Origin: Candidatus Poribacteria bacterium
GTDB taxonomy: Bacteria; Poribacteria; WGA-4E; B28-G17
Length of the DNA stretch: 50,881 nucleotides
Assembly (NCBI GenBank): GCA_021162805.1
Contig: JAGGXZ010000103.1
Location: 1-50,881 of the forward strand
Direction: 5' to 3'
Part shown: in pieces, positions 4,078-36,477 of the stretch
Numbering within the stretch: position 1 is the first letter of the stretch
How the letters are laid out: each line of letters opens with the position of its first letter
Translations under genes and position numbers: made by a program
The notes under the pieces: model-generated
Database searches by the model: none
The model's input: the letters and a program-made list of their open reading frames with translations, nothing else
What the model was told of the DNA's origin: nothing

Positions 4078-6399
4078 ATGACCGTCAGAAGGTATCTCCT
4101 CATAAAGGGCGTAGTTCAAGGCGTCGGGTTCCGCCCCTTCATATATAACCTCGCCGCCAAGTATGATTTAAAAGGATGGGTTCTGAACTCCACTGACGGC
4201 GTGCACATCGAAGTGGAAGGCCCCGTCGATGAGGTAGAGGGGTTCATCTCTCAGATCCGTCTCGAGGCTCCTCCTTTGGCGCGGATAGATTCGATAGAGG
4301 TCAGGGAGCTTGAACCTATCGGATACACCGATTTCACCATCCGACATAGCGAGGGCGATTCGAGCAAGTATATCAAGATCTCGCCCGATGTCTCCATCTG
4401 CGAGGATTGTCTCAGGGAGCTTTTCGATCCCACCGACAGGAGATACCTATATCCGTTCATCAACTGCACCAACTGCGGCCCGAGATTCACGATAATCAAG
4501 GATATCCCCTACGACCGGCATAACACCACCATGAGACCTTTCAAGATGTGTAAGCTGTGTCAGGCGGAATATGATGATCCGTCGAATCGGAGGTTCCACG
4601 CCCAGCCGAACGCCTGCCATACCTGCGGGCCACACGTATGGCTTGAAAGAAGCGGCTCGAGGGGGATCGTCGCCGAAAGGGATGAGGCGATAAGGGAGGT
4701 CATACGCAGGTTGTCCAAGGGCGAAATCGTCGCCATCAAAGGACTGGGCGGATTTCACCTGGCATGCGACGCCTCAAATCAGGAGGCGACTGCGAAGCTC
4801 AGGGAGAGGAAACGCAAAAGCCTTAAGCCCTTTGCCATAATGGCACCTGATATCGAGACGATAAAAACCTTCTGTTTCGTCTCAGATCAGGAGGAGAAGC
4901 TTCTTTCCGGATATCAGAGGCCGATCGTGCTTCTGAGGAGAAAGCCCGGTGCGCCGATAGCGGAGGCCGTCGCGCCGAACAACGAGTTTTTGGGCGTGAT
5001 GCTGCCCTATACCCCGCTGCACTATCTGCTGTTCTGCTCCGATCTCCGGCCTGAGGGGGTGAAACCCTTCATCGCTCTCGTCATGACGAGCGGGAACCTC
5101 TCCGAGGAGCCGATAGCGATAGATAACGAGGAGGCCAGAGAGAGGTTAAAGGATCTGGCGGACTGGTTTTTGATGCATAACAGGGAGATATGCACGCGGT
5201 GTGACGACTCGGTGGCTAAAGTGGATCTGGGAACGCAGATCATGATCCGACGCTCCCGCGGATATGCGCCCTACCCGGTGGATCTTCACATCGATATGCC
5301 GCAGATCCTCGCCTGCGGAGCGGAGCTCAAAAACACCTTCTGCCTGACCAAGGAGAATCACGCCTTCCTGAGCCAGCATATCGGCGATCTACAGAACGCG
5401 GAGGCCTTCAAGTTCTTCGCCGATTCGATAGAGTATATGAAGAAGCTCTTCAGAATCGAGCCCGAATTCATCGCCTACGACCTTCATCCGGAGTACCTCT
5501 CGACGAAATATGCCATGGAATTCCAGGGGAAGCTGGATCTCATCGGCGTGCAGCATCATCACGCTCACATAGCAAGCTGTATGGCCGAAAGGAGAGTTGA
5601 GGGGAAGGTGATAGGTGTGTCATTCGATGGGACGGGATACGGAACGGACGGGAGGATATGGGGGGGCGAGTTTCTGGTGGCCGACGAGAGGGAATTTGTG
5701 AGGATCGCTCATCTCAAATATCTGCCTCTGCCCGGCGGGGACGCGGCCGTCAGGGAACCCTATAGGATGGCGCTGAGCTATCTGTGGGATCTGTATGGAG
5801 ATGGACTTTGGGAGGCGGGTTTGCCCATGCTTGAAAGGATCAACCCGGCCAATCTCAGGCTTATCGTGCAGATGATCGAACGGGGAATCAACTCCCCGCT
5901 CACCTCAAGCTGTGGGAGGCTCTTCGATGCCGTCTCCGCACTGGCCGGCGTCCGATCGGTCATAAGCTACGAGGCTCAGGCCGCTATGGAGCTGGAGATG
6001 AAGGCATGGAGGGAAGGGGGTTTAAAGGTGGAGGCCCCAAGCTACGGCTGGGATCTGATAAAGGATGAGAGCCCATGGCTGGTGGATATGTCCGAGACGA
6101 TCAGAGGCGTGGTCGAGGACGTCTTATCCGGCAAAAGCGCGGGATGGATCTCACACAGGTTCCATCGGACGATGGCCGATGTGATCGCCGTGGTCTGTCG
6201 GGAGATGAGAGGGGAATTCGGATTGAACGATGTGGCCCTGAGCGGAGGGGTCTTCCAGAACAGGTTGCTCCTGAACCTCTCCTTTAAAAGGCTGGCTGAG
6301 CAGGGATTTCGCGTGCTGTTCAACAGGGAGGTTCCCGCAAATGACGGCGGGATATCCCTGGGGCAGGCCTACATCGCCGCTTCGAGGGTGAGAGGATGA
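4078..6399 (+). CDS. hypF: Carbamoyltransferase HypF
   Basis: HypF makes and transfers the thiocarbamate that becomes the CN ligands of [NiFe] hydrogenase, handing it to HypE. All domains are present in order: N-terminal acylphosphatase ([16 protein letters not shown], about 1-90), two zinc-finger units ([22 protein letters not shown], about 105-190), a YrdC-like ATP/carbamoyl domain (about 200-385), and a Kae1/TobZ-like domain with the metal motif HHHAHIAS. At 773 residues it is full length. The ATG at 4078 overlaps the predicted transcription start; an in-frame TTG two codons earlier is possible. The stop overlaps larB by ATGA, so the two are translationally coupled. No other hyp or hydrogenase gene lies in the window. 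Confidence 0.95.
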
Positions 6400-7163
6400 A
6401 CCGGGAAAGGCTAAAGGAGTTGCTCGAGAGGGTTAAATCGGGTGAGCTATCGATAGATGAAGCTCTAAGTGACCTCAGATCACTTCCATTCGAGGATCTG
6501 GGATTCGCTAAGGTGGATCATCATCGCGGGATCAGACAGGGGTTTCCCGAGGTGATCTTCTGTCAGGGGAAAAGGGTGGAACAGGTGGTTGAGATATCCA
6601 GGCGGATCATATCGAAGGGGGCCGATCTTTTGGCCACGAGGGCGTCGAGGGAGATATACGAGTCGATCCGCGAGATAGCCCCTAAGGCCAGATATAACGA
6701 TCTGGCGAGGGCGGTGATACTGGAGCAGGTTCCCAAGGAAAGGCTCAAAGGGGTGACCGTCATCTCGGCCGGGACGGCGGACCTTCCCGTCGCCGAGGAG
6801 GCCGCTGAGACGGCTTGGATAATGGGAAATGAGGTCGATAGGATCTATGACGTCGGCGTGGCTGGGCTGCATAGATTGCTTGGGAACCTCGATAGGATCA
6901 CCTTGGCCAACGTTCTCGTGGTCGTCGCTGGGATGGAGGGAGCTTTGGCAAGTGTGGTAGGCGGATTGGTCGATAAACCCGTCATAGCTGTGCCTACGAG
7001 CGTGGGATATGGGGCTAGCTTCGGGGGATTGGCGGCGCTTCTGACCATGCTCAACAGTTGTGCCTCAGGCGTGGCGGTGGTCAACATAGATAACGGTTTC
7101 GGCGCGGGATATATCGCCTCGCTCATAAACCGACTCGCTCATGCCCCCCATCAGCCCATATAG
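6396..7163 (+). CDS. larB: Pyridinium-3,5-biscarboxylic acid mononucleotide synthase LarB
   Basis: The 255-residue protein belongs to the PurE-related LarB family, which carboxylates nicotinic acid adenine dinucleotide in the first step of nickel-pincer nucleotide cofactor synthesis. Recognisable parts are the N-terminal helical region ending in [23 protein letters not shown], and the PurE-like core [43 protein letters not shown] and [13 protein letters not shown]. It overlaps hypF by 4 bp. LarC and LarE, needed for the cofactor, are not in this window. Pairing with hypF gives a two-gene nickel-enzyme maturation transcript. It ends with TAG, showing that TAG is an ordinary stop here. Confidence 0.92.
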
Positions 7164-7394
7164 CCATGATAGACGGAATTATGTCGTCGATAAGGCCGTT
7201 CCAACCGCCGCTTGATCCTCTACACCTTGACCGATGATGAGCGTTGTCAGACGCCCTTCGATAACGTAGCGCGTTACCTTTTGATCGCCCCTAGGTGATG
7301 GCGAGCTTATCCTTGGGCTCGACAGACAGAAATGCGGAATTGGATGCCAGATATTCGATGATATTCGCCGTCAGTTTTCTCAGGTTTTCGCTCC
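7164..7394. other. Gene-poor stretch with possible minus-strand gene remnant
   Basis: No intact gene is seen. On the minus strand a short open stretch ends with TAG at 7291-7293 and reads SENLRKLTANIIEYLASNSA before it. It looks protein-like but has no start and no recognisable family. It abuts the formylglycine-enzyme fragment that begins on the other strand near 7395, consistent with a region of rearranged debris. Confidence 0.3.
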
Positions 7395-8150
7395 CCTTCG
7401 ACTGGAATAGATGAATATGAGGTCACAAATTCTCAATATCAGAGGTTCGTTGACGAAACTGGTTATCCACCTCCTCCACACTGGAAGGACGGGAGATATC
7501 CGGTCGGCCAGGGGGATTTCCCAGTCGTTAACGTTTCATATGAGGATGCTAAGGCTTACGCATTATGGGCGGGGAAACGGCTGCCCACGGCCGCGGAATG
7601 GGAAAGAGCGGCGTTCGGATCGGTGGACGAGGGGAGAAATGAATGGCCATGGGGTAAAACCTGGAATGGATTGAAGGCTAACTTCGTCACATCAAAGGGT
7701 ATAAACCTCAGATCGGTCTTCGCTTTCCCGAACGATGCTTCTCCCGATGAAATGGTGGCCACGATTAAAGGTTCTGATGTCTTCTCCGGAGAGTTAAGCG
7801 CTATCCTGGGAACTCCTAGAACAGCTACGGTGAAAGCGTTAACGAGAAGCAAAATTACCTTCTACTCTGGCGGAATCCAGACTATAATCGAAAACCTACC
7901 CATTGTGGCCGAGAAGCTCCTCATAACACTGGCCAAAAGATTGGCTCAGACCACGGAGGAAATGTGAGAAACTGCAGATAAAGAAGATGGAGGGAAAAAC
8001 TCGATCCTTCAGGAGCAGGTAAACAAATTGAAGGCTGAAAATGAGCAACTCCAATCTAAGCTCGATGAGCTTAATCAGGAGCTCGAATGGTTGAAAAGCC
8101 GCCTGACGCCAAAGGGGAAAAACGATAAGGAGCGAGGAAAACAGCGTTGA
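7395..8150 (+). pseudogene. Chimeric remnant: formylglycine-generating-enzyme fragment joined to a cNMP-binding/coiled-coil fragment
   Basis: One reading frame, without a credible start, first encodes about 100 residues typical of FGE-sulfatase (SUMF1/EgtB) domains: DEYEVTNSQYQRFVDETGY, FPVVNVSYEDAKAYALWAGK, RLPTAAEWERAAFG and WPWGK. Near 7700 it changes to a shortened cyclic-nucleotide-binding domain (SGELSAILGTPRTATVKALT) followed by LPIVAEKLLITLAKRLAQ. An in-frame TGA at 7965-7967 interrupts it. Beyond the stop the same frame continues with a coiled coil (NKLKAENEQLQSKLDELNQE) to TGA at 8148-8150. The simplest reading is fusion of two decayed genes by deletion, plus a nonsense mutation. 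Confidence 0.7.
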
Positions 8151-8155
8151 AACCC

Positions 8156-8184
8156 TTGACATCGAAGCCCAGCGGATCTATAAT
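8156..8184 (+). promoter_or_regulatory. Consensus sigma-70-type promoter
   Basis: TTGACA (8156-8161), a 17-bp spacer and TATAAT (8179-8184) match the housekeeping consensus exactly. It would start a transcript near 8191, about 34 nt before the ATG of the epimerase-like gene at 8225. Confidence 0.75.
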
Positions 8185-8224
8185 CTCAAGTTGGAGATGG
8201 AAAATCAAGTTCTGAGGTGAGGAT

Positions 8225-9097
8225 ATGTTCAAACTGGGAGTTATATCGGATGAGGTATCTCAGGATTTCGAAAGGGTTGTCAAGCTTGCTACGGAGTTCA
8301 AGCTCGATTCAATCGAGATAAGATCGGTGTGGGATAAACCCCCTCAGGAGCTAACGGAGAGGGACGTCGATAGGATGAAGAAAATCATGGATGGGACCGG
8401 ACTACGGGTCGTAAGCATCGCCTCTCCGTTTTACAAATGCGACTTTGAGAACGTGGAGGAGCGAAGAGAACACATCGAGATACTCAAAAGATGTATCAAA
8501 CTTGCAAAATCCTTCGGCGCAAACATCATCCGCGGCTTCGCCTTCTGGAACACGGGCAGGACGGAGGAGATCTGGGACGGCATATTGGAGGCCTTCGAGG
8601 AGCCGGTGAAGATCATCCAGGATGAGGGAGTGTTTTTGGGAATCGAGAACGAATCCTCCACCTCCTTGGCCACGGCGAAGCTAACACAGAGGTTCATAAA
8701 GGAGTTGAACTGTCCGAACGTCAGGGCGATATGGGATCCTGCCAACGAGCTGTCGGCGGAAGGAGGGGAAAAACCGTATCCCGATGCCTATAACAGGCTC
8801 AAGCCCTATATGATCCACGGCCACATCAAGGACGGCAAGCGCGATCCTCAAACCGGAAGGTTCATACCCACCCCTATAGGGGAAGGTGAGGTGGGTTGGA
8901 AGGAACAGCTACAGGCCTTCATAGATGACGGGTTTGAAGGGCATCTGTCGCTGGAGACACACTGGAGGCCCACAAAGACCCTGTCCGAGGACCTACTCAA
9001 CAGGCCCGGAGGCAGCGCCTTTTCGGAGGCAGGAGAGGAGGCATCGAGGATCTGCCTAGAAAAGCTCTTCGCGATCATAGAGGAACTCAGAAGGTAA
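8225..9097 (+). CDS. Sugar phosphate isomerase/epimerase (xylose isomerase-like TIM barrel)
   Basis: The 290-residue protein shows the AP-endonuclease-2/xylose-isomerase-like TIM barrel. Its features are an N-terminal LGVISDEVSQDFERVVKLATEF strand/helix split around DSIEIR, the metal-site segments GIENESSTSLAT and AIWDPANELSAEGG, MIHGHIKDG, and the C-terminal GHLSLETHW. The conserved Glu, Asp and His residues expected to bind a divalent metal are visible. Family members isomerise or epimerise sugars and inositols, but substrate cannot be read from sequence. GAGGTGAGG precedes the ATG. It has its own strong promoter and a hairpin terminator shared with the convergent ftsB-like gene. Confidence 0.85.
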   Translation: MFKLGVISDEVSQDFERVVKLATEFKLDSIEIRSVWDKPPQELTERDVDRMKKIMDGTGLRVVSIASPFYKCDFENVEERREHIEILKRCIKLAKSFGANIIRGFAFWNTGRTEEIWDGILEAFEEPVKIIQDEGVFLGIENESSTSLATAKLTQRFIKELNCPNVRAIWDPANELSAEGGEKPYPDAYNRLKPYMIHGHIKDGKRDPQTGRFIPTPIGEGEVGWKEQLQAFIDDGFEGHLSLETHWRPTKTLSEDLLNRPGGSAFSEAGEEASRICLEKLFAIIEELRR

Positions 9098-25846: not shown

Positions 25847-27355
25847 ATGGACCTTACTTTCTCCACCCTCTTCACCGCCCAGAACGTGAGGGATCATCTT
25901 TCAAGCGAAGAGGGAATAGAGAATGCCATCGACTGGTGCCGCCGCACGGCCGTGACCAAGGTGTACATAGAGTCCTTCAGAGACGGATACACGGCGGAGA
26001 GAAAAAACCTGGAGAGGGCGAGGGACCGATTCAAGGAGGCCGGATTTGAGGTGGCCGGATGTGTCACCACCACCAACGTAGGCAAAAGATCCACGGGCTG
26101 GAACATAATCGCATGCTATACCGATAGGGAGACACAGGAGAAACTACAGAGGATCTTCGAATACACCGCATCGATGTTCGACCTGATAATGATAGATGAC
26201 TTCCTCTTCACCGACTGCCAGTGTCAGGAGTGTCAGGCAGCCAAAGGAGATCGATCCTGGGTTCAATATAGATGCGAACTTATGACCCGAATATCCAGGG
26301 AGAGGATAATCGGCCCTGCCAAATCGGTCAATCCCAAAGCCAGGATCATAATAAAATATCCACAGTGGTACGATAACTTCCACAACCGAGGATATGACGT
26401 GGTGAGGGAGACGGAGGAGTTCGATTACATCTGGGTGGGAACTGAGACCAGAGATCCGGACAACGAGAGATGGGGGAGAAAAGCACAGTATGAGGCATAT
26501 TACATCATGAGATGGCTGGGCGAGATCGGAGGTGAAAAGACGGGAGGCGGATGGTTCGATCCGTTTGGAACCAACCCTCCGACCTACCTGGAGCAGGCCC
26601 GGCAGACGGTTCTAGCCGGCGCCAGGGAGGTTTTGCTCTTCTGCTATGGAGCCCTGCAGAGGGATACCGGTCCGGCGAACGTCCAACATCTGAGGGAGGA
26701 GATACCCTATCTCTACGATCTCGCCCGTATCGTCCGAGGCAGATCGATCCTGGGAATCGCCGCCCCTAAACCCCCTAACAGCGATCCAGACGGCGAGCCT
26801 TATGTCTTCGATTTCATCGGTATGCTCGGGCTGCCTCTCATCCCGACCGCCAGGATAGATCCCGAATCGTCCGACGCCCTCTTCCTCTCATATCACGCCC
26901 TGAAGGATGAGGATCTGAACGATAAGCTCTCATCCATGATCGATTCGGGCAAACCCCTGATGTTGACGGATGGTCTTGCCCGCGAGCTTAAAGGGATGGA
27001 TCTGAAGGGGGATAACGTGGTGATCCTCAACGTCAGGGGCGAGCCGAGATCCCTGTTGGATCTGGGACGCGAGGATTTAAAGGCGATACGTGATCTCATG
27101 CTGAGACCCTTCTCGCTCGGATTCGATTCCCCCAGCAGGGTGGCGCTGTATCTCTTCGGGGAGGAGTATGTGGCGATTGAGAACTTCAACGACGAAGAGG
27201 TCGAGATCGCCCTGACCGGGGATAGGATAGGCGGCTCAGAGCTCGCCCTGATCCTTCCCATGACCGCTACGGCGGACATGCGTTTCTCATCCCGTTCGCT
27301 CAGGGCGATTCTACCGCCCAGATCGCTGACCGTTCTGAGAAGGGGTGAACCCTGA
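25847..27355 (+). CDS. Uncharacterised glycosidase-like protein
   Basis: A 502-residue soluble protein without signal peptide. The N-terminal two thirds look like a TIM barrel of the glycoside-hydrolase kind: NAIDWCRRTAVTKVYIESFR, AGFEVAGCVTTTNVG, LIMIDDFLFTDCQCQECQ and IIIKYPQWYDNFH. The DDF motif after a hydrophobic strand would be the natural place for a catalytic acid, and the adjacent CxCxxC could bind metal. Residues 310-500 form an alpha/beta plus beta-sandwich part (DALFLSYHALKD, FGEEYVAIENFNDEEVE), as in trimerisation or accessory domains of GH42-like enzymes. I recognise no named family; the sugar role rests on the coupled epimerase. Confidence 0.6.
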   Translation: MDLTFSTLFTAQNVRDHLSSEEGIENAIDWCRRTAVTKVYIESFRDGYTAERKNLERARDRFKEAGFEVAGCVTTTNVGKRSTGWNIIACYTDRETQEKLQRIFEYTASMFDLIMIDDFLFTDCQCQECQAAKGDRSWVQYRCELMTRISRERIIGPAKSVNPKARIIIKYPQWYDNFHNRGYDVVRETEEFDYIWVGTETRDPDNERWGRKAQYEAYYIMRWLGEIGGEKTGGGWFDPFGTNPPTYLEQARQTVLAGAREVLLFCYGALQRDTGPANVQHLREEIPYLYDLARIVRGRSILGIAAPKPPNSDPDGEPYVFDFIGMLGLPLIPTARIDPESSDALFLSYHALKDEDLNDKLSSMIDSGKPLMLTDGLARELKGMDLKGDNVVILNVRGEPRSLLDLGREDLKAIRDLMLRPFSLGFDSPSRVALYLFGEEYVAIENFNDEEVEIALTGDRIGGSELALILPMTATADMRFSSRSLRAILPPRSLTVLRRGEP

Positions 27356-27744
27356 TGCCAGATCGCTCTCGTGACTGGTTCAATCAAGCGGTGAGAGATC
27401 TAGAACAGGCAGAGGATTCCCGGCGTGCCGGACGCCACGAATGGGCCTGCTTTGCCGCACAACAAGCGGCGGAGAAAGCTGTAAAAGCTCTACATCTTCA
27501 TCGTGGTCAGGAAGCATGGGGACATGTAATCGCAAGATTGCTTTCTGAATTGCCGGAGGAAATTACCGTTCCACAGAGATTAATAGAACAAGCCCATGTC
27601 CTTGATAACTATTACATCCCGGCACGATACCCTAACAGTCATCCGGAAGGAGCGCCATTTCAACACTACGGACCTTTACAAAGCGGGGAGGCGATCCGGT
27701 ATGCCCGTGAGATCATTGAATTCGTCCGTGCTCAGATGGCCTGA
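27355..27744 (+). CDS. HEPN-domain protein (partner of the following nucleotidyltransferase)
   Basis: A 129-residue helical protein of the HEPN family, COG1895/COG2250-like. It starts DWFNQAVRDLEQAEDSRRAG, continues WACFAAQQAAEKAVKALHLH, and has the typical DNYYIPARYPNSHP followed by AIRYAREIIEFVR. It lacks a clear RxxxxxH RNase motif, as many members of this subgroup do. The ATG overlaps the upstream stop by one base, and its own end overlaps the nucleotidyltransferase gene by 17 bp. HEPN and MNT partners form toxin-antitoxin or regulatory pairs. Confidence 0.85.
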   Translation: MPDRSRDWFNQAVRDLEQAEDSRRAGRHEWACFAAQQAAEKAVKALHLHRGQEAWGHVIARLLSELPEEITVPQRLIEQAHVLDNYYIPARYPNSHPEGAPFQHYGPLQSGEAIRYAREIIEFVRAQMA

Positions 27745-28075
27745 CAGCCGGCTGGTGCATAAATCTATATGTCAATGGGCACAGGAAATCGTCCGGTGCT
27801 ACAAGGAGATAGATCGCATCGGTTACTTCGGTTCCTATGCGCGGGGCGATTGGGGGGTGGGAAGTGATTTAGATGTAATCATAATTGTGAGGGCTTCTCG
27901 GTTACCTTTCGAAAGACGGGCTGCGGTATGGGATACAAACGGGCTGCCCGTACCGGTAGACCTGTTCGTCTATACACGTGATGAATGGCAATCGCTGCAA
28001 AATAAGGGGCAATTTTATCAAACGGTGATGCGGGAGATCGTCTGGATATACGTGAGAGACCGCCGATCGCCCTGA
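27728..28075 (+). CDS. Minimal nucleotidyltransferase (MNT)
   Basis: A 115-residue minimal pol-beta nucleotidyltransferase: RIGYFGSYARGDWGVGSDLD with Gly35-Ser36 and Asp47/Asp49 forming the GSX10DXD motif, followed by VPVDLFVYTRDEW whose Asp would be the third acidic residue. No upstream ATG with a ribosome site is visible, so GTG 27728, inside the HEPN gene, is chosen. The order HEPN-MNT is the reverse of the classic MntA-HepT order at 42332. It sits between a carbohydrate operon and smpB. Confidence 0.8.
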   Translation: MLRWPDSRLVHKSICQWAQEIVRCYKEIDRIGYFGSYARGDWGVGSDLDVIIIVRASRLPFERRAAVWDTNGLPVPVDLFVYTRDEWQSLQNKGQFYQTVMREIVWIYVRDRRSP

Positions 28076-30061: not shown

Positions 30062-31135
30062 ATGAAGCACAAAGCCAAGATCCTGATCGTGGACGATGAG
30101 AGGAACATCAGGGATTATCTGCACCTTATCCTATCCATGGAGGGATACAAATGCTCACAGGCCTCAGGAGGGGAAGAGGCGCTCGATATCCTGAGGAAGG
30201 AGGAGTTCGATCTCCTCATCACCGATATACGAATGCCCGGTATTTCCGGAACCGAACTGATCAGAGAAGCCGCTAAGATAAGACCTCATATAGCTTCTAT
30301 AGTTATATCAGCTGTGGCGGAGGTCGAAACCGCCGTCGAGTCGCTTAAATCAGGGGCTTATGACTATATCACCAAACCGTTTAAACAAGAGCGTCTGATG
30401 CTTACCATTGAACGCGCTTTGGAACGAAGAAATTTAATACTGGAAAACCTGAGATATCAGCGTTACCTTGAGGATATGATCCAACAGAGGACGAAACATG
30501 TCCGCGAGCTTTTTTTCAGAGCTATAACCTCCCTCGTCAGGGCGATCGAGGAGAGGGACAAATACACAAGGGGCCACTCCAAAAGGGTCGCCGAGATATC
30601 CCGCGTGATAGGAGAGGAGATGGGATTGAGCGAGGAGCAAATAGTTCAGCTTGATCTGGCCGGGCAGCTCCATGATATAGGAAAGATAGGAATTCCGATA
30701 GATGAGATCCTCCACAAAGCCGATCCCCTTACGCCGGAGGAGTATGAGATCATAAAGACCCATCCCGTCAGATCCTATCATATACTACGTCCTCTCTTCG
30801 AGTTCAAAGGCTCTCTAGATGAGATAACGATGAACGAAAACGGAAGGGCCAAGGAGGAGACGCTTGATATCATACTGCATCACCATGAGAGATTCGACGG
30901 GAAGGGATATCCGCACGGACTTAAAGGAAATGGGATTCCACTTGGAGCGAGGATATTGGCCGTCGCCGATTCATATGATGCCATGACATCCCTACGTCCC
31001 TATAGATCCTCCCCTCTATCGCATAGGGAGGCCATCGAGGAGATTAAAAGGAACTCCGGAACTCAATTCGATCCGAATATAACCGATCTCTTTCTCAGGC
31101 TTTGCGATAAAGGGTATATTCGTAAATCCTCTTGA
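30062..31135 (+). CDS. Response regulator with HD-GYP phosphodiesterase domain (RpfG type)
   Basis: A 357-residue two-domain protein. The receiver (about 7-120) has DDE-type acidic residues, phospho-acceptor Asp55 in LITDIRMPG, and Lys in YITKPF. After a coiled linker comes an HD-GYP domain: HSKRVAEIS, GQLHDIGKIG, KTHPVRSY, HHHERFDGKGYP and ARILAVADSYDAMTS. HD-GYP enzymes hydrolyse cyclic di-GMP. An insert of about 20 residues (DEITMNENGRAKEE) sits between the HPVRSY and HHHE motifs. GGGGAGGAG precedes ATG 30062; the in-frame ATG at 30029 has no such site. No histidine kinase lies nearby. The last 41 bp overlap the convergent alr gene. Confidence 0.92.
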   Translation: MKHKAKILIVDDERNIRDYLHLILSMEGYKCSQASGGEEALDILRKEEFDLLITDIRMPGISGTELIREAAKIRPHIASIVISAVAEVETAVESLKSGAYDYITKPFKQERLMLTIERALERRNLILENLRYQRYLEDMIQQRTKHVRELFFRAITSLVRAIEERDKYTRGHSKRVAEISRVIGEEMGLSEEQIVQLDLAGQLHDIGKIGIPIDEILHKADPLTPEEYEIIKTHPVRSYHILRPLFEFKGSLDEITMNENGRAKEETLDIILHHHERFDGKGYPHGLKGNGIPLGARILAVADSYDAMTSLRPYRSSPLSHREAIEEIKRNSGTQFDPNITDLFLRLCDKGYIRKSS

Positions 31136-32222
31136 TCCTTTCGCCTATCCCCGATAGGATATCATACGGAATAGTGCCGGCGAGTTTGGCGAGATAGTTC
31201 GGGGATATCTCTTTGCTGTTATCTTTCCCGATCAGGATCGCTTCATCTCCTATCTTCACACCCGGTATATCCGTCACATCGCACATCATCGTATCCATAC
31301 AGATCCGCCCGATAATGGGCGCCTCTTTGCTCCTGATCAGAACCTTGCCACAGTTGGAAAGGTGCCATTTGTATCCGTCTCCGTATCCGACCCGAAGTGT
31401 CGCTATCAGGGATGATCGCAAGGTCTTATAGGCACGACCGTATCCTACCGGCTGATATGCCTCAATCCGTTTCAGGTCTATCACTCTCGTTTTCCATGTC
31501 AGTGCAGGTTTCAGATCAAGTTTGTCCTCCAGGTGAGAACTCGGCGGGACACCGTATAATATCAATCCTGGTCTCACAGCCGTAAAGCTCGTTCGTCTCG
31601 GGAGAGCCATTATGGCGGCGCTGTTGGCGGCGTGAACGATCGGTGGGCATATTCCTCGCTCCTTCAAACCTTTTAATACCTCCTGAAACCTGTTAAGCTG
31701 TATGAAAGTGAACTCCGGATCGGGATCGTCGGCAGATGAAAAATGGGTGTACACCCCCTCCACCTCTACGTTTTGTATCTTCGTCAGTCTGGAGGCCATA
31801 TCTATCGCATCCGAATACCACACACCCGTGCGCATCATACCGGTATCGATCTCCAGGTGGATCTTAACCTTTTTTCCTCTATCTTTAGCGCATCGCGCCA
31901 GGGATAGGGCAAGGTTCAGATCGCCGACCGTCTGGGTTATGTTATAATCCACCACGGGCTCGACCTCATCCGGGAGAACGGGGAAGAGGTTAAGTATCGG
32001 AGCTCTTATGCCTGCTTCCCTCAGCCTTATCGCCTCCTCCAATCTGGCGACGGCGAGCATATCAGCCTTCCCCTGCAGATACCGGGCTACGGGGATAAGG
32101 CCATGGCCGTAAGCGTTGGCCTTGACCACGGCTATGACCTTTGACCCGCCGGTTATCGATCTTACCAGCTCCAAGTTTCGTCCGATGTTTTCCAAATTCA
32201 CCTCAACCCAACATCCATCCAT
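31095..32222 (-). CDS. alr: Alanine racemase
   Basis: PLP-dependent enzyme making D-alanine for peptidoglycan. The 375-residue protein begins DGCWVEVNLENIGRN and has the PLP lysine in VIAVVKANAYGHGLIPVA, the segment HLEIDTGMMRTGV, VRPGLILYGVPPSS, the catalytic Tyr/Arg region VGYGDGYKWHL and the C-terminal GRICMDTMMCDVTD. GAGGTG precedes the ATG at 32222, which overlaps the corrected stop of the preceding gene as TGATG. It is the last gene of the radical SAM operon and ends inside the 3' end of the HD-GYP gene. Confidence 0.96.
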   Translation of the reverse strand: MDGCWVEVNLENIGRNLELVRSITGGSKVIAVVKANAYGHGLIPVARYLQGKADMLAVARLEEAIRLREAGIRAPILNLFPVLPDEVEPVVDYNITQTVGDLNLALSLARCAKDRGKKVKIHLEIDTGMMRTGVWYSDAIDMASRLTKIQNVEVEGVYTHFSSADDPDPEFTFIQLNRFQEVLKGLKERGICPPIVHAANSAAIMALPRRTSFTAVRPGLILYGVPPSSHLEDKLDLKPALTWKTRVIDLKRIEAYQPVGYGRAYKTLRSSLIATLRVGYGDGYKWHLSNCGKVLIRSKEAPIIGRICMDTMMCDVTDIPGVKIGDEAILIGKDNSKEISPNYLAKLAGTIPYDILSGIGERIKRIYEYTLYRKA

Positions 32223-32496
32223 CACAGCACCTCACCTCTGACGTTGTCGATGGTGGCGTCGGCGAGCATCCATTCCCTATCCACTCGGTTGGCCGGTTTG
32301 GCCGGATGAACCCCTTATGCTCTATGACCGCTGATATGAAGATGACATCGCCGGGATAGATCTCATTCCGCTCGGGACGGAGCTCAAGGATGGATAAAAC
32401 CTCCTGTGGCGGGGAGAAGAGGGCATCCTTTCTCCATCCCACCACCCCCGCCATGATAATTAAAGCGATTATCCCCGTAAGGACCTTTATCTTCAT
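32222..32496 (-). pseudogene. Small exported/membrane protein, frameshifted near its 3' end
   Basis: The start encodes a signal-anchor (KIKVLTGIIALIIMAGVVGW) and a short beta-rich domain (ERNEIYPGDVIFISAVIEHK). In the uninterrupted frame the product is 97 residues but ends in a low-quality, Cys/Thr/Pro-rich tail overlapping alr. Shifting frame by one base near 32305 gives PAKPANRVDREWMLADATID and a stop (TGA 32224-32222) that overlaps the alr ATG as TGATG. This makes the shifted version the likely original. Either the gene carries a one-base deletion or the assembly does. The ATG overlaps the radical SAM stop by 4 bp. Function unknown. Confidence 0.6.
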
Positions 32497-34106
32497 TCAC
32501 CCCTATATGGAACAGAGAACTTCCTCTCTATCACCTCGCGAAATACAGGTCCGGAGTTATAGGCGCAGAAGGGGTACATCTTTCCGTCCGGAGCGGCATA
32601 GTGGATGACACATCTTCTGACCCTTTCGACGTCGTAGTTATAGGCGTCCATGAAATGCATGCCGCCGATCATAATGCTTTTGTAGCTGTGTTTGCCGACC
32701 TCGTTCGGGTTCCGATCGTATTTGTTGCTGGTCAGCTCGTCTATCGTGGCGAGGAATTTTCTAAAGGTGAGCCCTTTGGGGGCTTTCTCCTTCTTAAAGT
32801 ATTTACGCAGCACATTCAGCGCCCGAACACCTGAGAGCAGCTTGAAGTTGAACCTGGAGTTTGCGATCTTATCCGCGAGGTGGTCCATCTCCGTCAATAG
32901 CCCTTTAAGGTCGATGAAATCGCTCACCTGAACGGCGTTGCCTTCATCATCCACGAAGAGATACGTCGCTAGCGAACAGATCGGGTGGCATGAGTACATC
33001 GTCACCTCATGGCCGGCTATAGCGGCCATAACCCTGGAAATCGGTGTCACAGCACAAAGCGGAACCCAATCCTTCGCCTTAATGAACCCTGTCTGTTCCT
33101 CTATCCTCTTGGCCAAATCTGGTAACGTGAAGCGGAGCTTAGCCCGCTCCTCCCTATCTATTCTACCTGTGAATGCAACCGGCTGGAAGCTTACGCCACT
33201 TATGACATCGACGTTTTCAATGGCGAATCGGACCATCTCGCCGAGCTTGTCGTCGTTGATGGTGTTAACGACCGTTGGAACCAGAACCACCTTCATGCCC
33301 GTTTTACGGGCGTTTTCGATAACCTTTAGCTTAGTCTCTAGTAATCTCCTCCCTCTCGTTTTGATATACACGTCATCGTCGAGGCCGTCGAACTGCAGAT
33401 ACAGGGAGTGCAGCCCGGCCTCTCTCGATTTCTGAGCGAATTCCAGATCGGCCAGCTTTATCCCATTTGTGGCTACCTGGACGGCCGAAAAGCCCATATC
33501 CCTGGCCGTCTCCAGTATTCTGAGGAAATCGGGATGTATCGTCGGCTCGCCCCCTGAAAACTGAACACATGCCACGGGAACTGGCCTTCTCTCCCTAAGC
33601 ATCCTCATCATCTCGACGACTTGCTCATAGGAGGGCTCATACAAATACCCTGTAACGGCGGCGTTGGCGAAGCAGATGGGACATCTGAGATTGCACCTAT
33701 TCGTCAGATCGATGTTGGCTAAAGCGGTGTTGCTGGTGTGAAGGCTGCATATCCCGCAGCTTAAAGGACACGCCCCCGGACTCGTCACCTGAGGGTTGGA
33801 AAACCCCCTTCCATCCCCGAAGAACCAATTCTTCACATTGAGGTAGAACTCGACGTCGGACCAAACCACGTCCTTGAACTTCCCGTGTTCAGGGCATTCC
33901 TTCTCCATCATCACCTTTCCGTCCTCCTCGAACACTAGGGCGGGCAACAGCCTCCTGCATTCGGGACATATTGACACGGTGCGCTTGGGCAGGTCAAACT
34001 GGGGCGGCGTAATCTTCGCTCCTGAGTAGGTGGTTTCAGGTTGGTGGATCACGTGAGGCGGCACCTTCCGTTCCCGAGCTTCCGCGCTTTTGACAGTGCT
34101 TTCCAT
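32493..34106 (-). CDS. Radical SAM protein, COG1964/Tes (tetraether lipid synthase)-like
   Basis: A 537-residue radical SAM enzyme. N-terminal zinc/iron-sulfur-type Cys pairs (SICPECRR at 47-50, ECPEHG near 71), then PGACPLSCGICSLHTSNT with three Cys, then the SAM-cluster loop NRCNLRCPICFANA (Cys138, 142, 145), the SAM-binding VQFSGGEPTIHP, and a C-terminal auxiliary region with Cys in YSCHPICSLATYLFVDD and RCVIHYAAPDGKMYPFCAYN. This arrangement matches MJ0619-like proteins (COG1964), which include the archaeal tetraether lipid synthase Tes; bacterial homologues may couple lipid tails but are mostly untested. AAGGAG lies 7 nt before the ATG. It heads an operon with the small gene and alr. Confidence 0.8.
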   Translation of the reverse strand: MESTVKSAEARERKVPPHVIHQPETTYSGAKITPPQFDLPKRTVSICPECRRLLPALVFEEDGKVMMEKECPEHGKFKDVVWSDVEFYLNVKNWFFGDGRGFSNPQVTSPGACPLSCGICSLHTSNTALANIDLTNRCNLRCPICFANAAVTGYLYEPSYEQVVEMMRMLRERRPVPVACVQFSGGEPTIHPDFLRILETARDMGFSAVQVATNGIKLADLEFAQKSREAGLHSLYLQFDGLDDDVYIKTRGRRLLETKLKVIENARKTGMKVVLVPTVVNTINDDKLGEMVRFAIENVDVISGVSFQPVAFTGRIDREERAKLRFTLPDLAKRIEEQTGFIKAKDWVPLCAVTPISRVMAAIAGHEVTMYSCHPICSLATYLFVDDEGNAVQVSDFIDLKGLLTEMDHLADKIANSRFNFKLLSGVRALNVLRKYFKKEKAPKGLTFRKFLATIDELTSNKYDRNPNEVGKHSYKSIMIGGMHFMDAYNYDVERVRRCVIHYAAPDGKMYPFCAYNSGPVFREVIERKFSVPYRGE

Positions 34107-34581: not shown

Positions 34582-34896
34582 ATGACGCTGGTGCATCTGA
34601 AGATGGACAACTGTAACTTCAACACCACCATCACCGCTCAGAGGATCGGTGAGTTTGAGGTGAAGATCTCGATAGAAAGCGAATGTGATTCCATACAGTC
34701 GCTTCAAGGGATGGTCGAGAGGATAAGCATCGATGACATCTGGGCGCGAAGACCTCCGCTTAATCTCGAATGTCACTCGAAGCTCAAACATCCCTCATGT
34801 GCCTTCCCGGTGGCATTGGCGAAGGCAGTTGAGGTTGAGCTCGGACTGGCTCTGCCAGGGGAGATCATACTCAAATCGGAGAGGATCGATGGTTAG
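34582..34896 (+). CDS. Small Cys-containing protein, DUF6951-like
   Basis: The 104-residue product has four Cys: NCNFNTTI, SECDSI, ECHSKL and SCAFPVALAKAVEVELGLAL. The last motif, with the pattern C-x-P-x-A-x-x-K-A-x-E-V, resembles a small family known from archaea and anaerobes (DUF6951). I name it from memory and with reserve. The four Cys could bind one metal or cluster. AAGGAGG stands 10 nt before the ATG. Its stop lies inside the start of the LOG-like gene, giving an operon with LOG and rtcA. Confidence 0.55.
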   Translation: MTLVHLKMDNCNFNTTITAQRIGEFEVKISIESECDSIQSLQGMVERISIDDIWARRPPLNLECHSKLKHPSCAFPVALAKAVEVELGLALPGEIILKSERIDG

Positions 34897-35437
34897 GAAG
34901 GGCGTGATAACACTTTTCGGTGGATCGGCGGTTGAGGAGGGGGGAAATGAATGGGAAAAGGCATATCAGATAGGCCGTTTGATCGCAATGGCGGGGTTCA
35001 CGCTGTGTAACGGGGGTTTCGGGGGGACGATGGAAGCCTCAAGCAGAGGGGCAAAAGAGGCGGGTGGTAAGACGATAGGGGTGATAACCTCCTTCCTGGA
35101 TGCTGAAAGGCCGAACCCATGGGTTGATGAGGTGATCTACGTCGGAACGTACCTGGAGCGCATCCGGAGGCTGATAGAGCTCGGCGATGGCTTCATAATT
35201 TTGAGGGGAAGCGTGGGGACGTTCTCCGAGTTCTTCCTGCTCTGGTGCCTAGAGTATATCGGCAAGATCCCACGCAAACCGATCGTCCTTATGGGTGAAG
35301 CGTGGCGAAAGGTGATACAGGCGATCGAAGGACAGATGCAGCTTACACCTTCACATCTCGACCTGCTTAGCTTCGCCGATTCCCCACAGGAGGCGGTCAG
35401 GATTATCACCGAAGGTCTCAAGGGGAAATCGAAATGA
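34889..35437 (+). CDS. LOG-family (lysine decarboxylase-like) protein
   Basis: A 182-residue Rossmann-fold protein of the LOG/TIGR00725 group. Visible motifs are VITLFGGSAVEEGG, LCNGGFGGTMEASSRGAKEAG and ILRGSVGTFSEFFLLWCLE, the last corresponding to GGxGTxxE of cytokinin-activating phosphoribohydrolases though with GSVG in place of GGxG. Such proteins release ribose phosphate from nucleotides; the true substrate is open. ATG 34889 is used because it overlaps the preceding stop; a much longer frame from 34733 would lie within that gene. Its stop overlaps rtcA by ATGA. Confidence 0.82.
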   Translation: MVRKGVITLFGGSAVEEGGNEWEKAYQIGRLIAMAGFTLCNGGFGGTMEASSRGAKEAGGKTIGVITSFLDAERPNPWVDEVIYVGTYLERIRRLIELGDGFIILRGSVGTFSEFFLLWCLEYIGKIPRKPIVLMGEAWRKVIQAIEGQMQLTPSHLDLLSFADSPQEAVRIITEGLKGKSK

Positions 35438-36477
35438 AGGACGGAATCATCACGATAGACGGCTCTTTCGGAGAAGGCGGAGGCCAGATATTGCGCACCG
35501 CCCTGGCACTATCAAGCCTTTTGGGTGTAGGGATAAGGATAGAAAAGATCAGAGCGAAGAGGAGGAACCCGGGGCTAGCCCCTCAACATCTCACCTGCGT
35601 CGAGGCCGCCGCGGAGATATGCGGAGCTAAGGTCGATGGGGCGGAAATCGGATCAAAGGAGCTCACTTTTATCCCCGGCGAAACCAAACCTGGGGTATAC
35701 CTGTTTGATGTCGCACGGAAACGACCCAGCGCTGGATCTGTCTCACTTGTCCTCCAGGCTATATATCTACCACTTGCCCTTTCAGGTGGGAGAAGCGAGG
35801 TGATCATCCGAGGGGGAACACACGTGCCCTGGAGTCCCCCGGCTCATTACCTTCAACAGGTCTTTTCACCTATCGCCTTGAGGTTTGGGCTTAGGTTGAA
35901 CATCGAGATTTTAAAATGGGGGTTTTATCCTAAGGGCGGCGGCGAGATAAAAGCCATTATACATCCCTCAAAGCTCACACCTGTTTCGATCTTGGATAGG
36001 GGAGCGCTTACCAGGATCAGAGGATTCTCGGCCTGCGCGAGACTTCCGATCTCAATCGCTGAAAGGCAGAGAAAAGCCGCCGTGAGAAAGCTAAATGGAA
36101 TCTCAGACGTGGAAATTGAAACGGTCTCTGTGCGATCCAAGGGGCCGGGGACAGCCGTCTTTCTCGTCGCGGAGTTCGAGAACAGCATCGCCGGGTTCTC
36201 GTCCCTGGGTGAGAAAGGGAAACCGGCCGAGAAGGTCGGAGAAGAGGCAGCGGAGGAATTACTGATCTTCCTGAGGTCAAGATCCGCTTTCGATCCCCAT
36301 TTGTCCGATCAGATGATACCTCTCATGGCTCTGGCGGGCGAAGGATCGGCCATCACCACATCATCGATAACCCGACATCTTATGACCAACATATGGCTGG
36401 TCGAACGACTCACCGATGTGAGATTCGAAGTCAGGGGGAAACTCGGAGAGCCGGGGAGGATAAAGGTTATCGCTTGA
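35434..36477 (+). CDS. rtcA: RNA 3'-terminal phosphate cyclase
   Basis: RtcA adenylylates RNA 3'-phosphates and converts them to 2',3'-cyclic phosphates. The 347-residue protein has the typical start IDGSFGEGGGQILRTALALS, RAKRRNPGLAPQHLTCVEAA, RGGTHVPWSPPAHYL, and the nucleotidyl-accepting His region TTSSITRHLMTNIWLVE (His near 315). No rtcB or rtcR gene accompanies it, unlike the E. coli operon; its partners here are the LOG-like and small Cys-containing genes. Its 3' end overlaps the convergent HTH gene by 11 bp. Confidence 0.95.
   Translation: MKDGIITIDGSFGEGGGQILRTALALSSLLGVGIRIEKIRAKRRNPGLAPQHLTCVEAAAEICGAKVDGAEIGSKELTFIPGETKPGVYLFDVARKRPSAGSVSLVLQAIYLPLALSGGRSEVIIRGGTHVPWSPPAHYLQQVFSPIALRFGLRLNIEILKWGFYPKGGGEIKAIIHPSKLTPVSILDRGALTRIRGFSACARLPISIAERQRKAAVRKLNGISDVEIETVSVRSKGPGTAVFLVAEFENSIAGFSSLGEKGKPAEKVGEEAAEELLIFLRSRSAFDPHLSDQMIPLMALAGEGSAITTSSITRHLMTNIWLVERLTDVRFEVRGKLGEPGRIKVIA

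Follow-up and report, generated by a model that had tools for sequence, protein, structure and literature searches.

A stretch of 50,881 nucleotides from a Candidatus Poribacteria genome (assembly GCA_021162805.1, contig JAGGXZ010000103.1; here called the window) encodes a homologue of tetraether lipid synthase (Tes, also named GDGT-MAS). The gene occupies positions 32493-34106 on the minus strand as one open reading frame (ORF) of 537 amino acids in the ORF listing of the window, and the plus strand across the same interval contains 14 stops. An earlier note, made from the DNA letters, had called a Tes-like radical S-adenosylmethionine (SAM) gene here; matches to the Tes family and to the solved structure 7TOL bear this out, on the minus strand. 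The protein is a bacterial Tes homologue in a good state of preservation and is probably functional. Bacterial homologues of this enzyme, including poribacterial ones, have already been published (PMC8941075; PMC11868695).

Against the NCBIfam model for Tes (NF045702), the window protein scores 601.7 bits (cut-off 450, E 8.9e-181). Its best match among solved structures is GDGT-MAS (7TOL, E 4.8e-143), followed by MoaA at 5e-12 in an alignment confined to the radical-SAM domain. Identity to the archaeal enzyme MJ0619 is 44-46%, varying with the alignment, and the window protein carries an N-terminal extension of about 40 residues relative to it. Scores for TrsS (NF045646, 355.1 bits, cut-off 490) and MoaA (TIGR02666, 87 bits, cut-off 284) stay under the NCBIfam cut-offs, which exclude both identities at the family level. 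The 13 further matches listed from the same genome span at most residues 113-368, so the window gene is the sole full-length Tes found there. Among six other radical-SAM proteins of this genome that were scanned, none reaches an equivalog cut-off of the listed families and none can be named as Mss. With a GC content of 0.53 against 0.54 for the window, the gene gives no sign of recent transfer by this measure. Contamination of the contig is judged unlikely from tetranucleotide correlations: four chunks of the window correlate at a mean of 0.92-0.94 with eight stretches from elsewhere in the genome (0.91 among those stretches themselves), against a maximum of 0.77 with 16 stretches taken from different genomes.

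Metal sites and predicted fold

Four metal sites have their ligands in the alignment with MJ0619, whose ligand numbering is taken from PMC9433317. The rubredoxin-type iron site consists of C47, C50, C71 and H74 (33885-33968, minus strand), equivalent to the ligands C9, C12, C33 and H36 named for MJ0619 (PMC9433317), and Pfam PF23545 matches at 71 bits. The ligands of the N-terminal auxiliary [4Fe-4S] cluster, C113, C117, C120 and H123 (33738-33770, minus strand), align with C73, C77, C80 and H83, the last of which appears to be the 'conserved histidine' of PMC9433317. They are followed by the radical SAM CX3CX2C motif at C138, C142 and C145 (33672-33695, minus strand; PF04055, 95.8 bits). The C-terminal auxiliary cluster region (32565-32978, minus strand) holds C377, M483, C499, Y503 and C514, where M483 and Y503 correspond to Met439 and Tyr459. 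Met439 is named for this cluster in PMC9433317, and C377, C499 and C514 are its likely further ligands, judged by conservation and domain. Both Met439 and Tyr459 are reported to be invariant across 1000 archaeal homologues (PMC9433317). The earlier mention of all three Cys groups was therefore correct and an understatement. In the main bacterial set, defined below, fifteen ligand columns, Tyr459 not among them, are intact in 34 of 37 rows; the exceptions are L070, where Asp replaces the rubredoxin His, and the short sequences L071 and L083.

A ColabFold model of the window protein, built from 30 sequences, has a pLDDT of 89.5 and a pTM of 0.90. Comparison with 7TOM gives a Z of 45.8 and an rmsd of 1.9 over 473 residues, a GDGT-MAS fold over the whole length, and Foldseek returns TM values of 0.84/0.91. 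The first unrelated entry appears at Z 20.2 in a structural ranking that speaks only for the families present in the compared list.

Phylogeny and distribution of Tes

A scan with one genome per species yielded 68 Tes loci. In the tree, MJ0619 and the window protein join 64 loci to give 66 rows, after removal of L101, L102, L104 and L106, which are fragments, a long fusion or not Tes. The main bacterial set is defined as the bacterial rows outside the archaeal branch, outside L098-L099 and outside L089-L096 with L103; L102 (genome G097) was added to it by its 51% identity and not by the tree. The window protein is sister to Tes of Candidatus Poribacteria UWMA-0232 (genome G005, locus L039) with support of 100/99, and the poribacterial pair groups with KSB1 and one other bacterium (88/83). 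Archaeal rows and L088 form a separate branch (99/97) to which the window protein does not belong. Nor does it fall into a COG1964 branch of different known reaction, the placement against which the earlier note had set its proposal; it sits among bacterial Tes homologues. These include a Solibacteraceae protein that is 56.8% identical, and further acidobacterial homologues are 52-56% identical. Solibacter usitatus is reported to produce branched glycerol dialkyl glycerol tetraethers (brGDGTs) and to have Tes homologues (PMC10087280).

Within the class, Tes exceeds the cut-off in 2/58 genomes, the host (G000) and G005, and three of 14 control genomes have such a match. Tes matches have been reported in 10 of 29 Poribacteria metagenome-assembled genomes (MAGs; PMC11868695).

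Two other groupings in the tree deserve mention in their own right. Nine rows (L089-L096 and L103) make up a separate acidobacterial Tes-like group that keeps the rubredoxin and radical-SAM ligands and has lost three of the four N-cluster ligands; its loci have conserved neighbours, one cluster of which (860-aa representative) occurs in 9/9. In L088, from an Aminicenantes-labelled MAG, Tes adjoins GGGPS, DGGGPS and GGR matches (4398-8832). The Tes of L088 branches among archaea, which points either to transfer of an archaeal lipid cluster or to mis-binning of an archaeal contig.

Association with an ester-to-ether reductase

When the Tes loci were searched with lipid proteins of the host, a protein of the Ger/PlsA type emerged, a bacterial ester-to-ether reductase of putative activity in this host. 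The host protein (1018 aa, G000:C3:28388-31441) contains two BcrAD_BadFG activase domains (PF01869) and DUF2229 (PF09989), which place it in the Ger/PlsA family. Its ORF is followed by one of 287 aa and then by the 445-aa partner, and G005 has both Ger-type proteins as well (1022 and 417 aa). Ger enzymes validated by expression are reported to carry two activation domains (PMC13274423), and E. coli expressing Ger is reported to form both mono- and dialkyl glycerols (PMC11150832).

Ger was sought in 68 genomes at E 1e-30 or better, and matches with at least 45% identity were counted as strong. Such matches are present in 29 of 37 non-poribacterial genomes of the main set and in both poribacteria with Tes, 31/39 together. 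Among the 22 poribacteria lacking Tes that were tested, strong Ger occurs in two (G001, 76% complete, and G004, 91%), three have matches of 30-31% only and 17 have none; the hypergeometric probability for this difference is 0.022 with kinship ignored. Main-set genomes with no match are G068, G081 and G090, and weak matches are found in G071, G076 and G078 (about 300 residues, 34-37%), G079 (31%) and G080 (35%). Outside the main set, no Ger was found in G094, G096 and G101, and only matches of 31-33% in G095, G099, G100 and G102.

The genes also form strings. An acidobacterial locus (L051) reads Tes-GerA-GerB on one strand and a planctomycete locus of the Phycisphaerae (L072) reads GerA-GerB-Tes on one strand, while in L053 and L102 GerAB lies about 4 kb from Tes, with some intervening ORFs on the opposite strand. 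Halamka et al. proposed PlsAR followed by Tes as the route to brGDGTs in S. usitatus (PMC10087280). The present counts lend genomic support to a PlsAR-Tes pairing in a wider bacterial set.

Archaeal-like diether genes of the host

The host genome also encodes homologues of archaeal diether lipid enzymes. GGGPS exceeds the cut-off of TIGR01769 (221.1 bits against 161.6), and its top Protein Data Bank (PDB) match is a GGGPS. The UbiA protein encoded on contig C57 has digeranylgeranylglyceryl phosphate synthase (DGGGPS) as its top PDB match (6m31, 1.4e-44) and scores below the DGGGPS equivalogs NF009521 (231.7 against 296) and NF009522 (189.4 against 353). For GGR, the top PDB match is a digeranylgeranylglycerophospholipid reductase (3oz2, 5.5e-83); the protein passes the subfamily model TIGR02032 (227 against 159) and falls short of NF041160 (303.4 against 780). 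Similarly, the G1PDH-like protein has G1PDH as its top PDB match (9h4x, 2.3e-43) and reaches 204.1 of the 413 bits required by NF002022. As DGGGPS, GGR and G1PDH all fall short of their equivalog models, these genes are treated as candidates. A search for CarS (PF01864) found no match in the host, which has two PlsY-family genes. The host may hold a full candidate archaeal tetraether gene set together with a putative bacterial ester-to-ether reductase and PlsY.

The four diether candidates lie on four contigs in the host (C57, C174, C182 and C183). The UbiA, GGR and GGGPS genes adjoin in G041, G006 and G005, as do GGR and GGGPS in G029. Eight class genomes were tested for these families: GGGPS-family matches occur in all eight irrespective of Tes, GGR exceeds its cut-off in five, and a strong G1PDH-like match is restricted to G000 and G001 (118 and 113 bits), the matches in G005 being weak (best 48 bits). 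TIGR01769 is passed in 5/39 main-set genomes (G000, G058, which is G005, G063, G065 and G074), a count that may omit another GGGPS type because this imperfect probe missed the archaeon Methanoperedens (G101). GGGPS and DGGGPS have been reported in FCB-group and related bacteria, for which tetraethers could not be assessed (PMC7852524). A combination of Tes with the diether pathway in Poribacteria was not found in the literature surveyed, which is largely open-access.

Two further features of these lipid genes were observed in relatives. GGR genes with an in-frame TGA occur in L147 (G041:C1, about 5540-6735, plus strand), L148 (G006:C35, about 6770-7949, plus strand) and L157 (G029:C2, about 5253-6460, minus strand). 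In each, the TGA aligns with the Cys of the PVRCAE motif of G000 and G005 and is followed by a hairpin (z -2.9, -2.5 and -1.1, respectively), which suggests a selenocysteine-containing geranylgeranyl reductase in three poribacteria. PlsY is present in G000, G001 and G005 and found no match in G006, G017 and G041, genomes of high completeness (two of them single-contig) in which GGGPS-family genes are present. The search covered PlsY; if PlsB, PlsX and PlsC were also missing, the membranes of these three organisms would be very unusual.

Genomic neighbourhood

On the same strand as tes lie a 97-aa ORF (32203-32496, minus strand), hydrophobic over a stretch in its N-terminal part, and the alanine racemase gene alr (31095-32225, minus strand; TIGR00492, 351 bits against a cut-off of 168; PF01168 and PF00842). 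The tes gene and the 97-aa ORF overlap by ATGA, the 97-aa ORF overlaps the start of alr, and the three look like one transcript. The 97-aa ORF may not be a gene: it matches no Pfam or NCBIfam family and nothing in the eight loci used for comparison. A promoter scan around these genes returned five sites against 3.2 expected, an uninformative result.

The earlier note had placed tes in an operon with alanine racemase and spoken of coupling to a cell-wall gene. Shared direction and overlapping ends agree with an operon, but none of the relatives examined showed this arrangement. At the alr loci of seven relatives (flanks of about 1.5 kb), none of the seven window proteins tested was found, Tes included, and the sister tes locus L039 (6-kb flanks) contains none of the other six. 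No alr match was found in G005 (79% complete), or in G001 and G015, both incomplete. Lacking recurrence in these relatives, the adjacency says little on function; the alr link looks incidental and was rejected as a functional clue. No cluster from the grouping of Tes-locus neighbours contains window ORFs, and many of the larger clusters stem from the distant acidobacterial group or from near-identical archaeal contigs.

Elsewhere in the window, a HEPN-domain protein (PF05168) overlaps a putative nucleotidyltransferase ORF at 27355-28075 (plus strand), likely a HEPN/MNT pair. At 34582-36477 (plus strand), three adjacent genes encode a DUF6951 protein, a LOG-type Rossmann protein and, with 397 bits against a cut-off of 250, an RNA 3'-terminal phosphate cyclase. 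Other bacterial Tes loci have neighbours of their own. A second radical SAM gene lies near Tes in L040, L041, L054 and L105, the four clustering together; among the loci scanned it is directly downstream of Tes in L040, where it has a SPASM domain, and in L054 and L105. It possibly encodes another lipid-modifying step. LolA-type genes cluster near Tes in L046, L053, L055, L102 and L105, of which two were scanned. L105 also has an ABC/FtsX transporter pair, and L054, L058 and L105 share a CDP-alcohol phosphatidyltransferase cluster, scanned in two of them. These neighbours hint at the export of envelope lipids or at head-group steps.

Reaction and product

From the observed family, ligand set, fold, tree place and Ger co-occurrence with its gene strings, we infer a reaction, a substrate and a product. 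With a probability of about 60%, the window protein is a bacterial tetraether synthase that joins fatty-acid-derived alkyl or acyl tails into brGDGT-like membrane-spanning lipids. Membrane-spanning lipids, as suggested in the earlier note, are hence the best-supported reading on the grounds of family, metal ligands, fold and Ger company, and only the use of alr as a pointer to an envelope role is dropped. Alkyl or acyl fatty-acid tails are favoured by the Ger association, the place outside the archaeal branch and the fatty-acid lipid genes of the host; with GGGPS in 5/39 main-set genomes and Ger in 31/39, fatty-acid-derived tails are the likeliest substrate.

Because the cluster ligands are present, the window enzyme is expected to follow the chemistry of MJ0619. 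The radical-SAM cluster would perform two sequential SAM cleavages and so remove hydrogen from the end carbons of two lipid tails. Of the alkyl radicals formed, the first would be stored at the C-terminal auxiliary [4Fe-4S] cluster, and the second would attack the stored tail, giving an sp3-sp3 C-C bond and one membrane-spanning chain. MJ0619 is reported to use two SAM for sequential hydrogen abstraction from terminal carbons, and a sulphur-bearing lipid obtained with it suggests that the C-terminal cluster retains the first radical (PMC9433317). Bacterial phospholipids were found in its active site (PMC9433317).

Several points weigh against this assignment. The main bacterial set is not shown as a single clade, its deep forks having support of 46/77, and Tyr459 is replaced by Phe in L053, L054, L058 and L105; the Y459F variant of MJ0619 is reported to have robust activity (PMC9433317). 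The 45% threshold for Ger was set once the scores were known, and the baseline without Tes consists of poribacteria, with no acidobacteria or deltaproteobacteria. Ger is not obligatory, as 8/37 main-set genomes have no strong match, and it is present in G001 and G004, where Tes over the cut-off was not found. A Ger gene falls within the fetched Tes flanks in 4/38 main-set loci (many contigs end early), and the host carries tes on C103 and its Ger pair on a separate contig, C3. The same host has archaeal-like diether genes. Finally, a demonstrated activity of any bacterial Tes was not found in the literature surveyed.

The diether genes make it conceivable, if rather improbable, that the same C-C coupling acts on isoprenoid diethers, converting archaeol-like lipids to archaeal-type GDGTs alone or beside fatty-acid tetraethers. 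The host has G1PDH, GGGPS, DGGGPS and GGR homologues by cut-off (GGGPS) or best PDB match, genes for the pathway adjoin in G041, G006, G005 and (GGR and GGGPS) G029, and E. coli given MJ0619 together with archaeal genes is reported to produce GDGT (PMC12042123). However, Tes does not track GGGPS (8/8 class genomes against 2/58 for Tes), which was not found in most main-set genomes, and the strong G1PDH-like match is limited to G000 and G001 of eight, with only a weak one in the Tes-carrying G005. The dispersal of the four genes over four host contigs, the missed equivalog cut-offs for DGGGPS, GGR and G1PDH, the lack of a CarS match and the position of the window protein outside the archaeal branch also speak against isoprenoid substrates. 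Membrane-spanning lipids made by this host from both isoprenoid and fatty-acid tails, possibly with hybrid chains, are a speculative prospect; if true, this would be a natural mixed membrane with tetraethers from both sides of the lipid divide.

Somewhat less probable still is a Tes fold put to different lipid chemistry, in which a tail or a non-membrane lipid would, for instance, be desaturated, methylated or macrocyclised intramolecularly. MA_1114, a Tes homologue of M. acetivorans, is reported to have given mere traces of macrocyclic archaeol, and Tes homologues are reported from 20 haloarchaeal genomes, where earlier lipid analyses of strains of this kind detected no GDGTs (PMC8941075); assays of bacterial homologues were not found in the literature surveyed. 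Against such a change of reaction stand the retained cluster ligands, Met439, Tyr459 and the entire C-terminal domain, along with the Ger association. A pterin methylase (HMPTM) is brought to mind by PF23545, named 'HMPTM N-terminal zinc ribbon' (71 bits), and MJ0619 itself was earlier assigned as a pterin methylase. This identity is very improbable given that MJ0619 is reported to couple lipids and to have a pocket filled with lipid (PMC9433317). Least probable of all is a TrsS-type radical SAM (seleno)protein or a MoaA-like enzyme: both families do match (355 and 87 bits), yet neither score reaches its cut-off (490 and 284, respectively), and both lie far under that for Tes (602 against 450).

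Fatty-acid tetraether synthesis by the window protein would bear on a practical matter, as brGDGTs are widely used for past temperature and pH and it is not yet settled which enzymes couple their tails. For fatty acids, Mss is proven; bacterial Tes homologues have only been proposed. The co-occurrence of Tes and Ger, together with gene strings in several phyla, makes the idea that Ger forms the ethers and Tes welds them directly testable with two or three genes. One cell with both fatty-acid and archaeal-like isoprenoid supplies sharpens the question of which tails a bacterial Tes chooses. What gives the window Tes its experimental worth is the tie to Ger together with the two lipid sources that may supply it.

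Comparison with known systems

The window protein resembles archaeal Tes/GDGT-MAS (MJ0619; 7TOL, 7TOM) in domain order, metal ligands, Met439, Tyr459 and fold. In contrast to the archaeal enzyme, it lies outside the archaeal branch, is N-terminally extended, belongs to a bacterial host with fatty-acid lipid genes and is known from sequence. Mss of Thermotogota and Bacillota has the same proposed reaction on fatty-acyl tails; Mss and Tes are reported to share a catalytic architecture by model superposition (PMC13274423). The host Ger pair matches Ger/PlsAR in its two PF01869 domains and PF09989, but is split into 1018 and 445 aa, whereas six of eight deltaproteobacterial Tes genomes have a single frame of 1411-1457 aa.

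Bacterial Tes homologues reported from Acidobacteria, Planctomycetota and Poribacteria (PMC8941075; PMC10087280; PMC11868695) are alike in identity and in the Ger/PlsAR-type genes found in most genomes. The host adds archaeal-like GGGPS, DGGGPS, GGR and G1PDH candidates, and a search with TIGR01769 detected no GGGPS in most of the set's other genomes. The host gene set recalls the diether pathway described for the FCB group (PMC7852524), with which it shares GGGPS and DGGGPS candidates, GGR and the lack of CarS. G1PDH was reported as not detected in four MAGs of that group (PMC7852524), whereas the poribacterial host has both a G1PDH-like gene and Tes.

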